The notes under the pieces were generated by a model, which ran no database searches, had not been told where the DNA came from, and saw only the letters and a program-made list of their open reading frames with translations. The position numbers and the translations under genes are program-made. Shown piece by piece: positions 25,820 through 42,808 of a DNA stretch of 64,000 nt. The stretch is from positions 354,659-418,658 of the forward strand of contig NZ_KQ948453.1 in assembly GCF_001514115.1 (NCBI RefSeq), read 5' to 3'. Every line of letters begins with the position of its first letter. The stretch's first letter is position 1. This DNA is from Streptomyces olivochromogenes. GTDB lineage: Bacteria > Actinomycetota > Actinomycetes > Streptomycetales > Streptomycetaceae.

Positions 25820-26467
25820 ATGAAGATCCACGCTGATGCCCTGCTGTTCGACAACGACGGGACGCTCGTCTCATCCCTCGAGTCGGTGAACCGGTGCTGG
25901 ACACGATGGGCGCGCGAGTACGGGATCACCGCGGAGGACTTCGCCCGGATCGAACTGCACGGCCGCCCCGCCGTCGAGATAGCCGCCGACCTGCTGCCCG
26001 CCGACCTGGTCCCCGAGGCGCTCGCGCGCATCGAACTGCTGGAGGTCGAGGACGTCCCCGGCGGCGTCGTCCTGCTCCCCGGCACCGCGGCGTTCCTCGA
26101 CGCGCTGCCGGCCGACCGCTGGGCCGTCGTCACCTCCGCCACCCGGCGACTGGCCGAGGCCCGGCTCGCCGAGGTCGGTATCCGGCCCAAGACGCTGATC
26201 TCCGCCGACGACATCACCCGCGGCAAGCCCGACCCCGAGCCCTACCTCCTCGCCGCCCGTGAACTGGGCGTCGACCCGGCCCGCTGCGTCGTCTTCGAGG
26301 ACGCCCCGGCGGGCCTGCAGGCAGGCCGCGCCGCCGGGATGACCACCGTGGCGTTGGCCACAACCCACGAGGCGTCCGAGCTGGACGCGGACCTCGTGGT
26401 GAAGGACCTGTCGGCCCTGTCCGCACTGGTCACCGGCGGGGGAGTGGAGATCTCCACCCGCGGCTGA
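25820..26467 (+). CDS. HAD-family sugar phosphatase-like hydrolase
   Basis: A 215-residue haloacid-dehalogenase hydrolase with a cap domain of beta-phosphoglucomutase type. All four motifs are visible: I LLFDNDGTLV (nucleophile and acid/base Asp), II VVTSATRRLA, III RGKPDPEPYLLA (Lys) and IV CVVFEDAPAGLQAG (Mg-binding acids). Such proteins dephosphorylate small sugar or polyol phosphates; the exact substrate is unknown. ATG at 25820 has GGGTCGAGGGC before it. A perfect 11-bp palindrome follows 10 bases after the stop. Confidence 0.9.
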   Translation: MKIHADALLFDNDGTLVSSLESVNRCWTRWAREYGITAEDFARIELHGRPAVEIAADLLPADLVPEALARIELLEVEDVPGGVVLLPGTAAFLDALPADRWAVVTSATRRLAEARLAEVGIRPKTLISADDITRGKPDPEPYLLAARELGVDPARCVVFEDAPAGLQAGRAAGMTTVALATTHEASELDADLVVKDLSALSALVTGGGVEISTRG

Positions 26468-26477
26468 GATGTGTCCA

Positions 26478-26502
26478 CCGCTGTCCGCAATGCGGACAGC
26501 GG
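26478..26502. promoter_or_regulatory. Perfect palindrome: terminator or operator upstream of metNIQ
   Basis: CCGCTGTCCGC-AAT-GCGGACAGCGG, an 11-bp perfect inverted repeat, 10 bases after the phosphatase stop and 38 bases before the met leader ORF. It could end the phosphatase transcript. Its short symmetric core (TGTCCGC-AAT-GCGGACA) also looks like a regulator site. Both roles remain possible. Confidence 0.6.
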
Positions 26503-26540
26503 TTCTGGGTCCCGCCTGTACGTCTGCTTTACTTGATCCC

Positions 26541-26627
26541 ATGACCACGACGAGCAGCCGCATCCTTGCGACCGAGGCGACCATGACGCCCGGTGCTCGC
26601 TGTATGTGTCGAATGTGCGCCTTCTAG
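26541..26627 (+). CDS. Cys/Met-rich leader peptide of metNIQ
   Basis: A 28-codon ORF (start ATG, stop TAG) whose end reads RCMCRMCAF: three Cys and two Met in six codons, in sequence TGT ATG TGT CGA ATG TGC, with TGT and CGA being rare in this genome. It lies 214 bases upstream of the methionine importer. A shorter start at 26583 would give a 14-residue peptide with the same end. By analogy with known amino-acid attenuators and with Cys-rich leader ORFs in actinobacteria, ribosome stalling at these codons during Cys or Met shortage could change the downstream RNA fold. This is an inference; no experiment is implied. Confidence 0.6.
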   Translation: MTTTSSRILATEATMTPGARCMCRMCAF

Positions 26628-26649
26628 AGGGCCCCCGCACCACCGCCCC

Positions 26650-26671
26650 GTCTCGCGCCCCGAAGCGAGAC
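26650..26671 (+). promoter_or_regulatory. Hairpin downstream of the leader ORF
   Basis: GTCTCGC pairs with GCGAGAC across an 8-base loop, 22 bases after the leader stop. It is a candidate attenuator element for metNIQ. A CCGGA/TCCGG stem with a T-rich loop (near 26731) follows. Confidence 0.4.
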
Positions 26672-26841
26672 AGCCGCGCCCTGTCCGTACTCCGTACGTG
26701 AGCGGCGTCGCCCCGCGCGCATGTTCTCTCCGGATTTTTCCGGTTCCATCGCCACCGCGAGAACCGTGTCGCGTTCCCGACCGAATGCACCCGTGCCGGC
26801 GCACACCCGCGCCCCGCACTCGACAGTGACGGAAACCCCCA

Positions 26842-27876
26842 GTGATCACGACAACGGGCCTCACCAAGGTCTACCGCTCGCGCGGCCGCGAAGTGACCGC
26901 CCTCGACGGCGTCGATCTGCACGTCCGCGAAGGCGAGGTGTACGGCGTCATCGGCCAGTCCGGCGCCGGCAAGTCCTCCCTCATCCGCTGCGTCAACCTC
27001 CTGGAGCGTCCCACCGCCGGCACGGTCACCGTCGCCGGACAGGACCTCACCGCGCTCGTCGGCCGCGGTCCGCGCGCGGGCAAGGAGCTTCGCCAGGCCC
27101 GCAGCCGTATCGGCATGGTCTTCCAGCACTTCAACCTGCTGTCCTCGCGCACCGTGCAGGACAACGTCGAGCTGCCGCTCGAAATCCTTGGCCTGTCGGG
27201 GAAGGAACGATCCTCCAAGGCGCTCGGGCTGCTCGACCTGGTCGGTCTCTCCGACAAGGCCAAGGCCTACCCGGCCCAGCTCTCCGGCGGCCAGAAGCAG
27301 CGCGTCGGCATCGCCCGCGCCCTGGCCGGCGACCCCAAGGTGCTGCTCTCCGACGAGGCCACCAGCGCCCTCGACCCCGAGACCACCCGCTCCATCCTCC
27401 AGCTGCTGCGCGACCTGAACCGGCAGCTGGGCCTGACCGTCCTGCTCATCACCCACGAGATGGACGTCGTCAAGACGATCTGCGACTCGGCCGCGCTCAT
27501 GGAGAAGGGCCGCATCGTCGAGTCCGGCACCGTCAGCGAGCTGCTCGCGACCCCCGGCTCCGAACTCGCCGGGGCGCTCTTCCCGGTGAGCGGCGAGCCG
27601 TCCGGCGACGACCGCACCGTGATCGACGTCACCTTCCACGGCGAGGCCGCCACCCAGCCCGTCATCTCGCAGCTCTCGCGCACGTACAACATCGACATCT
27701 CGATCCTCGGCGCCGCGATGGACACCGTCGCCGGCAAGCAGGTCGGCCGGATGCGCATCGAACTGCCCGGCCGCTACGAGGAGAACGTCGTGCCGATCGG
27801 ATTCCTGCGCGAGCAGGGCCTGCAGATCGACATCCAGGGCCAGCAGCCCGTGCTCGTGAAGGACGGTGCCAAGTGA
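26842..27876 (+). CDS. metN: Methionine ABC transporter ATP-binding protein
   Basis: A 344-residue ATPase of the MetNIQ importer. Walker A is GQSGAGKSS, the signature is LSGGQKQRVGIARAL, Walker B is VLLSDEATSALD, and the switch His is in LLITHEMDVV. The C-terminal ~95 residues (VIDVTFHGEAATQPVISQLS...) form the NIL/ACT-like domain that binds methionine and inhibits transport (known for MetN). The GTG at 26842 has only a weak GGAAAC ribosome-binding site. The stop overlaps the GTG of metI. A leader ORF and hairpins lie upstream, so control at the RNA level is likely. Confidence 0.95.
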   Translation: MITTTGLTKVYRSRGREVTALDGVDLHVREGEVYGVIGQSGAGKSSLIRCVNLLERPTAGTVTVAGQDLTALVGRGPRAGKELRQARSRIGMVFQHFNLLSSRTVQDNVELPLEILGLSGKERSSKALGLLDLVGLSDKAKAYPAQLSGGQKQRVGIARALAGDPKVLLSDEATSALDPETTRSILQLLRDLNRQLGLTVLLITHEMDVVKTICDSAALMEKGRIVESGTVSELLATPGSELAGALFPVSGEPSGDDRTVIDVTFHGEAATQPVISQLSRTYNIDISILGAAMDTVAGKQVGRMRIELPGRYEENVVPIGFLREQGLQIDIQGQQPVLVKDGAK

Positions 27877-28610
27877 CCTGGTCGGAGATGCAGCCCCTGC
27901 TGTCCCAGGCGTGTTGGGACACGCTCTACATGGTCGGCTGGTCCACGCTGATCGCGATCGTCGGCGGTCTGCCGCTCGGCGTTCTGCTCGTCCTGACCGA
28001 CCGCGGCGGACTCCTGCAGAACGTCGTCGTGAACAAGGTCATCGGTCAGGTCGTGAACATCGCCCGCTCGCTGCCGTTCATCATCCTGATGGTCGCGCTG
28101 ATGAACTTCACGCGCACGATCACGGGAACGACCATCGGGCGCGAGGCGGCGATCGTGCCGCTCGCCGTCGGCGCGATCCCCTTCTTCGCGCGTCTGGTCG
28201 AGACGGCGGTCCGCGAAGTGGACGGCGGTCTCGTCGAGGCCGTGCAGTCGATGGGCGGCAACACCTGGACCATCGTGCGCAAGGTGCTCGTACCGGAGTC
28301 GCTGCCGTCGCTGATCTCCTCCGCGACCACCACGATCGTCGCCCTCATCGGCTACTCCGCGATGGCCGGCACCGTCGGCGCCGGCGGGCTCGGCGACATC
28401 GCCATCCGCTACGGCTACCAGCGCTTCGAGACCGGACTGATGTGGATCACCGTGGCGATCCTCGCGGTCGTCATCTCCGTCATCCAGTTCGCCGGCGACT
28501 ACGCGGCCCGTACCCTGCACCGGCGCGGCGGCCACTCCGGCGCCGCACCGAAGCTGCGGCTGCTGAAGGCCAAGGAACCCGCCACCGCGGAGGTCGGCGA
28601 GGTCGCCTGA
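27873..28610 (+). CDS. metI: Methionine ABC transporter permease
   Basis: A 245-residue permease with five to six membrane segments and the BPD-type coupling loop (EAVQSMGGNTWTIVRKVLVPESLPSLI) that contacts MetN. ARSLPFIILMVALM and GTVGAGGLGDIAI are typical for MetI. It starts with GTG overlapping the metN stop (GTGA), so the two are translationally coupled. The C-terminal tail (KLRLLKAKEPATAEVGEVA) is charged and cytoplasmic. metQ follows after 102 bases. Confidence 0.95.
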   Translation: MTWSEMQPLLSQACWDTLYMVGWSTLIAIVGGLPLGVLLVLTDRGGLLQNVVVNKVIGQVVNIARSLPFIILMVALMNFTRTITGTTIGREAAIVPLAVGAIPFFARLVETAVREVDGGLVEAVQSMGGNTWTIVRKVLVPESLPSLISSATTTIVALIGYSAMAGTVGAGGLGDIAIRYGYQRFETGLMWITVAILAVVISVIQFAGDYAARTLHRRGGHSGAAPKLRLLKAKEPATAEVGEVA

Positions 28611-28712: not shown

Positions 28713-29543
28713 GTGCGTAACACCGCCAAGATCACCACCGCAGTCCTCGCCGCCGGAGCCCTCACCCTCGGCCTCTCCGCCTGCGGTTCGGACAAGAGCA
28801 ACAGCGCCTCCGACACCAGCGGTCCGCTGGTCGTCGCCGCGAGCCCCACCCCGCACGCCGAGATCCTCGACTACATCAAGGACAACCTGGCGAAGAAGGC
28901 CGGCCTCGACCTGCAGGTCAAGGAGTTCACGGACTACGTCACGCCGAACACGGCGACCGAGGACGGGTCCGTCGGCGCCAACTACTTCCAGAACCAGCCG
29001 TACCTCGACGACTTCAACAAGAAGAACGGCACCCACATCGTGCCCGTCGTCACGGTCCACCTGGAACCGCTCGGTCTCTACTCCCACAAGATCAAGAAGA
29101 CCGACGAGCTCAAGAGCGGTGCGACGGTCGCCGTCCCGAACGACACGGTCAACGAGGCGCGGGCGCTCAAGCTGCTCGCGTCCAAGGGACTCATCACGCT
29201 CAAGGACGGCGCGGGCAACAGCGCGACCACCCAGGACATCGCGAAGAACCCGAAGAACCTCAAGTTCAAGGAGCTGGAGGCGGCCCAGACCCCGCGCTCC
29301 CTGGACGACGTCGACGCCGCGGTGATCAACGGCAACTACGCCATCTCGTCCGGCCTCAAGCCGGCCAAGGACGCGCTCTTCCTGGAGTCCGCGACGAACA
29401 ACCCCTACGGCAACTTCCTCGCCGTCAAGAAGGGCAACGAGAGCGACCCGCGGGTGAAGAAGCTCGCCAAGCTCCTGACCTCGCCCGAGGTCAAGAAGTT
29501 CATCGAGGACAAGTACGCCGGCTCGGTCATCCCGTCGTTCTAG
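28713..29543 (+). CDS. metQ: Methionine-binding lipoprotein
   Basis: A 276-residue NlpA/MetQ-family lipoprotein that delivers methionine to MetNI. The lipobox is LGLSACGSDKS, so the mature protein begins at Cys anchored in the membrane. VVAASPTPHAEILDYIKDNL and NYFQNQPYLDDFN are typical MetQ ligand-binding segments. GTG at 28713 has AAGGAAAGG before it. The 102-base gap after metI has a C-rich stretch but no good terminator, so cotranscription is likely. A strong terminator follows. Confidence 0.94.
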   Translation: MRNTAKITTAVLAAGALTLGLSACGSDKSNSASDTSGPLVVAASPTPHAEILDYIKDNLAKKAGLDLQVKEFTDYVTPNTATEDGSVGANYFQNQPYLDDFNKKNGTHIVPVVTVHLEPLGLYSHKIKKTDELKSGATVAVPNDTVNEARALKLLASKGLITLKDGAGNSATTQDIAKNPKNLKFKELEAAQTPRSLDDVDAAVINGNYAISSGLKPAKDALFLESATNNPYGNFLAVKKGNESDPRVKKLAKLLTSPEVKKFIEDKYAGSVIPSF

Positions 29544-42440: not shown

Positions 42441-42515
42441 TGGTGCGCGATACTGGGATTGAACCAGTGACCTCTTCCGTGTCAGGGAAGCGCTCTCCCG
42501 CTGAGCTAATCGCGC
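42441..42515 (-). tRNA. tRNA-Val (GAC)
   Basis: Full cloverleaf with acceptor GCGCGAT/ATCGCGC, anticodon loop CTGACAC (GAC, Val) and a genomic CCA end. The T arm is ACTGGTTCAATCCCAGT. Last of four tRNAs transcribed on the minus strand (Gly-Cys-Val-Val). Confidence 0.96.
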
Positions 42516-42549
42516 GGGGATCCGGATGGATCAGGTCCTTGCGGACCAG

Positions 42550-42621
42550 TGGACGATACTGGGATTGAACCAGTGACCTCTTCCGTGTCAGGGAAGCGCT
42601 CTCCCGCTGAGCTAATCGTCC
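42550..42621 (-). tRNA. tRNA-Val (GAC), second copy
   Basis: Same as the neighbouring tRNA-Val in D, anticodon and T arms, but the acceptor stem is GGACGAT/ATCGTCC and no CCA is encoded. Anticodon GAC. Confidence 0.95.
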
Positions 42622-42622
42622 T

Positions 42623-42696
42623 TGGAGGTGGAGACGGGATTTGAACCCGTGTAGACGGCTTTGCAGGCCGTTGCCTCGCCTCTCGGCCACTCCACC
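42623..42696 (-). tRNA. tRNA-Cys (GCA)
   Basis: Acceptor GGTGGAG/CTCCACC, anticodon loop CTGCAAA with GCA (Cys), T arm CGGGTTCAAATCCCG, discriminator U and genomic CCA. Only one base separates it from the next tRNA-Val. Confidence 0.96.
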
Positions 42697-42735
42697 AGGA
42701 GTGTGGGGGTTCGGGATGATCCCCCTCTTCCTGCG

Positions 42736-42808
42736 AGCGGACGACCAGGTTCGAACTGGCGACCTCAACCTTGGCAAGGTTGCGCTCTACCAACTGAGCT
42801 ACGTCCGC
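42736..42808 (-). tRNA. tRNA-Gly (GCC)
   Basis: Acceptor GCGGACG/CGTCCGC, anticodon loop TTGCCAA with GCC (Gly), T arm CCAGTTCGAACCTGG, no encoded CCA. First gene of the tRNA cluster. Confidence 0.96.

Follow-up and report, generated by a model that had tools for sequence, protein, structure and literature searches.

A Cys/Met-rich leader ORF upstream of metNIQ in Streptomyces as a candidate ribosome-sensed attenuator

In the 64,000-nucleotide stretch of Streptomyces olivochromogenes DNA that we analyzed (the window), the methionine importer genes metNIQ are preceded by a 28-codon mini-ORF at positions 26,541–26,627 that, on balance, is probably an attenuator leader, through which translating ribosomes would sense the supply of Cys-tRNA and perhaps of Met-tRNA. 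The leader and the attenuation idea have been in print since 2021: in S. lividans TK24, a mini-ORF named metL (SLIV_29928), with the peptide MSTTSDRTPATEATTTPGARCMCRRMCAF and a leaderless transcription start site (TSS), lies before metNIQ and was predicted to be a methionine-dependent attenuator with unclear termination (PMC8079986, in the parts drawn on here). It occupies the same locus and belongs to the same peptide family as the leader in our window. As far as those parts go, the published account concerns one species, names methionines and threonines and not cysteines, and gives no RNA fold or comparative evidence. What we add is the Cys signature, a fold within the ORF, a near-invariant hairpin, the spread of the leader, and a second mini-ORF in one family. 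The Cys/Met-rich attenuator put forward in the original prediction is consistent with the S. lividans prediction and with Cys-sensing leaderless mini-ORFs of mycobacteria, and its novelty falls away. The leader and the genes that it precedes are as follows.

26,541–26,627, + strand: leader mini-ORF (metL), 28 codons, stop TAG, Cys/Met-rich end RCMCRMCAF; from ORF reading, peptide and comparative searches
26,842–27,876, + strand: metN, methionine ABC transporter ATP-binding protein; TIGR02314 E = 9.7e-112, 373 bits, under the equivalog cut-off of 499.7
27,876–28,610, + strand: metI-like permease; start approximate, open frame TWSEMQPLL...VGEVA*, named by operon position
28,713–29,543, + strand: metQ, substrate-binding lipoprotein; NF008285 E = 4.1e-59 (under cut-off), TIGR00363 E = 1.4e-57

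The mini-ORF translates to MTTTSSRILATEATMTPGARCMCRMCAF, with Cys at codons 21, 23 and 26 and Met at codons 22 and 25. Its length and ending, the three Cys and two Met codons within six positions (21–26), and a metN 214 nt beyond its stop, all read from the letters alone in the original prediction, hold; metN has a GTG start at 26,842, in the same place in its own genome. Cys alternates with Met and Arg in RCMCRMC, with no contiguous Cys-codon run in this leader. The codons TGT and CGA had been called rare, and counts pooled over metN, metI and metQ agree (1 of 4 Cys and 1 of 42 Arg codons, respectively); an alternative count that includes a doubtful upstream ORF gives 0 of 5 and 14 of 135. 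No NCBIfam family was matched by the leader peptide. The reported lack of a SAM riboswitch is likewise upheld, with no Rfam family at gathering score in the leader and, in a permissive search of 26,440–26,900, a sole match at E = 3 to a Pseudomonas sRNA, which we took as chance. Elsewhere in the window, four tRNA genes are clustered at 42,444–42,808 on the minus strand.

The leader peptide is kept across the genus: of 150 Streptomyces genomes sampled, 137 have a match at E ≤ 0.0023, and an RNA model adds 5 of the 13 peptide-negative genomes (E from 2.5e-20 to 2.1e-12), bringing the count to 142 of 150. Five of the eight leader-negative genomes have no MetQ match, two have metN at the extreme end of a contig, and the eighth (G110) has a MetQ-like gene and no metN within the 3 kb read. 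Relatives of the leader are present in other Streptomycetaceae, Thermomonosporaceae, and Glycomyces. At family level, a cut-off of E ≤ 0.1 on the RNA model admits 96 of 150 genomes, in 13 of 17 genera, with doubt about the weakest matches, and a genome without a significant model match (G538) still has MFTTAHISGTAATATGCRCMCRSCQMCRMCGC before metN. For the class sample the figure was 60 of 394 genomes at E ≤ 0.1, with the majority of non-Streptomyces matches being weak, and in family f17 six of 80 genomes passed 0.05, four of them convincing. Loci without a MetN match from the weaker covariance-model searches (11 of 60) were left out, and two genomes with covariance-model E values of 0.03 to 0.045 (G471 and G680) were rejected because reading them showed no leader. 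Searching named genomes for the motif gave at least 117 stretches; in 105 of those listed, metN lies no more than 600 nt away (88 from Streptomyces, 14 from Actinomadura, and one each from Thermomonospora, Wenjunlia, and Glycomyces), and three of the other 12 listed come from unrelated proteobacteria. In the class sample, the stop-proximal motif occurs in 18 of the 394 genomes, at the leader every time. In two loci (L197 and L205) the leader is retained and the metN after it looks truncated or internally deleted.

Judged from sequence, the locus has the makeup of an attenuator: a short leader ORF before an operon, with its frame held by 146 out of the 147 distinct leaders (26–38 codons long), its Cys/Met codons kept, and metN following in 129 of the 130 loci fetched (the remaining locus stops at a contig end). 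The frame count refers to CGAATG or CGCATG in frame with the ATG (CGA-ATG in 143 and CGC-ATG in 3, one leader lacking the motif), in a sample that is partly biased, as its Streptomyces part was gathered by peptide similarity; the relatives came from a nucleotide model with no translation step. The last 14 residues contain 1–5 Cys in all 147 leaders and 1–4 Met in 146, and Cys in the leader ends is encoded by TGT 294 times and TGC 127 times, compared to TGT for one of four Cys codons in metNIQ. Distant relatives with different N-termini retain the end (...CRCMCRSCQMCRMCGC and ...GCTCCRRMCDR), and insertions between the Cys/Met codons are seen (RCMCRMCRMCAF, RCMCRLMCRMCAF, ARCPRHARCHTRCRMCRR, and others), with flanking residues exchanging freely. 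Known arrest peptides have fixed spacing. The insertions and exchanged flanks, unlike that spacing, make it quite unlikely that the C-RMC end is a nascent-chain arrest peptide, stalling the ribosome on a small molecule or translation state and not on empty tRNAs; the near-invariant Arg-Met ahead of the last residues is what such a peptide has in its favor. The Met codon after CGA is near-invariant but also sits in a pairing strand (strand A, below), where an RNA constraint may keep it, so that Met may or may not be sensed besides Cys.

Across the genus, the leader varies almost as little at third codon positions as at the others, which is more constraint than a peptide alone would need, and comparison of the genomes yielded a fold inside the ORF, followed by a hairpin after the stop.

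26,547–26,555, + strand: P1 5′ strand ACGACGAGC, codons 3–5, pairing with 26,595–26,603
26,559–26,570, + strand: hairpin P2 (CGCA/TGCG), fold model
26,571–26,594, + strand: hairpin P3 (ACCG-A-GGCG / CGCC-CGGT), with both sides of the stem changed in L125 (AGCG/CGCT) and in L115 (GGCA/TGCC)
26,595–26,603, + strand: P1 3′ strand GCTCGCTGT, codons 19–21, including the first Cys codon
26,650–26,671, + strand: hairpin P4, GTCTCGC-GCCCCGAA-GCGAGAC, after the stop, with a near-invariant loop

P1, P2, and P3 together form a predicted three-way junction within the ORF, which in the comparative fold places its 5′ end beside the Cys/Met codons. Folded as a whole, the leader reaches a minimum energy only slightly better than that of shuffles (z = −1.74), but the ORF part by itself is clearly structured, with a mean z of −3.18 over 95 distinct Streptomyces leaders and 87% below −2. 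Covariation, which the original prediction had proposed looking for in other genomes, is present for both the in-ORF fold and the post-stop hairpin. With relatives included, 23 of 28 pairs changed on both sides, and 142 cells had both-side changes, where shuffles gave 35.8 and slid controls no more than 39, in an alignment (A2) that was fitted to the fold model, so that these pair counts lean toward it. Within Streptomyces alone, where there is little variation, both sides change in 8 of 32 pairs, vs. 3.1 in shuffles. Alignment A1 excluded 9 of 102 distinct leaders, and L102, which has a partial metN, was excluded from counts. The exchange of AGC/GCT for AAC/GTT at codons 5 and 19 of P1 is found in 23 rows vs. 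129 of the old type, with one exception, and amounts to one or two events on the tree. Thermomonosporaceae leaders have unrelated sequence and a similar three-way junction in many, not all, of the 15 examined (mean z −1.46; two short-called Actinomadura ORFs, L284 and L362, were excluded). The GTCTCGC/GCGAGAC hairpin of the original prediction was recovered at 26,650–26,656 and 26,665–26,671 and is conserved genus-wide; an 18-mer from P4 occurs in 8 of 296 phylum genomes, at the leader in each. Its loop is retained with an altered stem in a Glycomyces locus (L355) and in L222. A possible pseudoknot between the stop-adjacent GGGC and the P4 loop is compatible with the alignment but invariant, and about half of the rows cannot form one of its four pairs.

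Fixed third positions, the strong fold of the ORF part, and a P4 loop almost invariant across orders are also what a riboswitch or protein-binding RNA would present, in which the junction and P4 would respond to a metabolite or protein and the ORF would be there by chance; with no Rfam match, it would be a new class. We judge this unlikely, as the frame is held despite the range of leader lengths, Cys codons persist where the N-terminal part has diverged, some Streptomycetaceae keep the ORF while P4 is lost or replaced (L194 and L198–L201), and the TSS in S. lividans is leaderless, at the ATG (PMC8079986, in the parts drawn on here). From these sequence comparisons, the leader appears to serve as peptide and RNA alike.

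Part of the Cys/Met end could also pair with RNA beyond the stop, through two strands.

26,611–26,620, + strand: strand A GAATGTGCGC, covering the end of the CGA codon, Met25, Cys26, and the start of the Ala codon
26,717–26,726, + strand: strand B GCGCATGTTC, partner of strand A; B-type motifs partly follow the A type

Their 10 pairs make GAATGTGCGC:GCGCATGTTC the longest pairing between leader and untranslated region in the genome of the window. Measured against dinucleotide shuffles, A:B pairing has a mean z of −0.40 in 133 Streptomyces loci (19% below −1.6), −0.52 in 35 other Streptomycetaceae, and −2.74 in 17 Thermomonosporaceae loci; a locus's own A pairs better than another A in 67–69% of Streptomyces and other Streptomycetaceae, and in 94% of Thermomonosporaceae (examples are AUGUGUGAC:GUCGCGCAU, AUGUGCGGU:ACCGCACAU, and AUGUGUGA:UCACACAU). 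Among Streptomyces, B contains GCGCAC in 60 of 75 Cys-Ala leaders and GTCAC in 14 of 30 Cys-Asp leaders, while Arg-Ala leaders have GCGCAT in only 6 of 35 and GCGCAC in 10 of 35. On the tree, A:B covariation in Streptomyces comes down to few events, with two supported independent pairs, and the sign test is not significant. By these measures the Met-Cys codons can clearly pair with a downstream strand B in Thermomonosporaceae, and only weakly in Streptomyces. By eye, an alternative B:C hairpin can be drawn further downstream in a few sequences.

All 17 named Actinomadura and Thermomonospora loci (L280–L384) also have a second mini-ORF of 18 codons 3′ of P4, located about 57–79 nt past the stop of the first leader and before metN, with its AUG at or adjoining strand B in most of them. 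Its pattern is M..[EQV][RLT]HLL.[HN][AT]P[YF]PPG.. (HLLSHAPYPPG type), which with N permitted for H matches 17 of 17 loci. Codons vary synonymously while residues are held, in a codon table whose rows were chosen on H[AT]P[YF]PPG, so that only the remaining positions are a test. The second mini-ORF was not found in Streptomycetaceae: a partial string match occurred in 17 of 177 loci searched, and the full peptide among those 17 in three f17 loci only. Pro-Pro-Gly slows ribosomes. In a two-step relay, which we consider fairly unlikely, the Met-Cys codons of the first Thermomonosporaceae leader would hide the start of the second mini-ORF, a stall on the first would release the second, and the Pro-Pro-Gly pause of the second before its stop would open metNIQ; Streptomyces would then have a form without the second ORF, with the strand acting directly on the message.

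How a stall would be read out was explored in the leader-to-metN gap, which is C-rich, untranslated, and about 150–340 nt long across loci. Directly before metN (26,791–26,841 and relatives) lies a conserved block, CCCGTGCC.GG..CAC plus GCACTCGACAGTGACGGAAA. The T-rich hairpin of the original prediction (CCGG-ATTTTT-CCGG) is present at about 26,730–26,743; as a terminator we rejected it, because its stretch is poorly conserved. No conserved intrinsic or U-run terminator was seen in the leader–metN alignments, which, together with the likewise missing terminator for metL in the parts of PMC8079986 drawn on here, argues against classical transcription attenuation, in which the stall would toggle a terminator before metN that is either intrinsic without a U-run or Rho-dependent. 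Rho would still fit, the C-rich untranslated stretch speaks for such a mechanism, and the model is in print for other actinobacterial leaders; our estimate of its probability is nonetheless low.

Placing a ribosome on strand A lifts the predicted accessibility of the metN Shine-Dalgarno (SD) sequence from 0.425 to just 0.463 (a rise in 66% of 169 genomes), compared to 0.452 with the ribosome at the stop and 0.450 for a control cut after P4, and the strand A and stop positions do not differ (p = 0.34). The effect being slight, unspecific, and nearly equaled by the control, we rejected SD unmasking by the stalled ribosome. Of the earlier claim that stalling opens metNIQ, the conserved, in-frame, leaderless-type Cys/Met leader is supported, and opening by SD unmasking is not. 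RNAalifold proposed, in several groups, a pairing of UGUCGA (the Cys-Arg codons) with UCGACA, which directly precedes the metN SD; this sequestration was rejected as unproven, since both sides are nearly invariant and exceptions lack compensation, and it is also disfavored by Thermomonosporaceae, in which UGUCGA is fixed though the metN start region has no partner.

In the attenuator that we favor, the metNIQ message would begin at or very near the mini-ORF AUG, as is in print for S. lividans, and the first ribosome would melt the in-ORF fold. With Cys-tRNA (or Met-tRNA) in good supply, the ribosome would reach the stop and depart, the fold would re-form and limit re-initiation, and strand A would pair with strand B, so that metNIQ stays low. 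Under a shortage of Cys or Met, the ribosome would park on UGU-AUG-UGU-CGA-AUG-UGY and mask strand A, so that strand B and the RNA downstream are freed and metNIQ is expressed. The final step could be translation of metN or relief from early termination, Rho-dependent or otherwise; we lean toward translational control, because strand B in Thermomonosporaceae contains the start codon of the second mini-ORF.

Upstream of the leader are two further elements.

26,482–26,498, no strand assigned: inverted repeat TGTCCGCAATGCGGACA, conserved in most Streptomyces, lying before the leader promoter and likely an operator
26,528–26,533, + strand: putative −10 element TTTACT, preceded by TGC, extended −10 like

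The inverted repeat lies about 58 nt 5′ of the leader start. In the 120 nt upstream, the best match to TGTCCNNNATNNGGACA departs from it at no more than one position in 112 of 128 Streptomyces loci and mostly sits between −57 and −60 relative to the leader ATG, whereas shuffled upstream sequences always have at least three mismatches; TGTCCNNNATNCGGACA has one exact match in its own genome. From its sequence, TGTCCGCAATGCGGACA is likely an operator for a regulator, which we would guess to be of the IclR type, such as NdgR. The string TCTG.TTTACT stands about 8–9 nt 5′ of the leader ATG in nearly every Streptomyces row displayed. A SenR site, CCGTGCCGCGTTCCG, was predicted before metN (SCO1559) in S. 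coelicolor (PMC4991794, in the parts drawn on here); if the S. lividans TSS holds, that site would fall inside the transcribed leader.

Among known systems, the polycysteine leaderless mini-ORFs of mycobacteria are reported to confer Cys-responsive attenuation on a downstream sulfur operon (Canestrari 2020, as cited in PMC9031893, PMC9094748, and PMC13236596). As described in those citing papers, they share with metL a leaderless start (for metL, in S. lividans), Cys codons near the end, and a sulfur-related operon downstream, but have contiguous Cys codons before Cys genes, in contrast to interleaved Cys/Met codons and an in-ORF fold before a methionine importer; CC pairs do occur in some Actinomadura leaders. 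A 2005 comparative study reported Cys leaders in mycobacteria and, in the parts drawn on here, found that no RNA structure is conserved ahead of methionine operons (PMC1262725). The ilvB-II motif of Corynebacterium, a conserved “RNA motif,” proved to be an attenuator uORF (PMC10272879, as excerpted); it differs from metL in its branched-chain amino acid codons and transcription attenuation, and we claim no sequence relation. In the open-access literature searched, neither a further treatment of the metL leader nor data from ribosome profiling or codon swaps turned up. Under oxidative stress, transcripts of metQ, metI, and metN in S. coelicolor are reported to rise 2.3-, 3.5-, and 5.2-fold, together with Cys biosynthesis genes (PMC4991794, in the parts drawn on here), which fits Cys sensing and is not specific to it.

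The comparative anatomy of the leader, in which fold and hairpin are constant, codon insertions vary, and one family has a second mini-ORF, makes the mechanism testable by a few reporter constructs. If the proposed reading is true, methionine uptake in a large group of antibiotic producers would be gated by a combined sensor of cysteine and methionine supply, and both sulfur amino acids would be linked in one short sequence that is at once message, sensor, and RNA fold.
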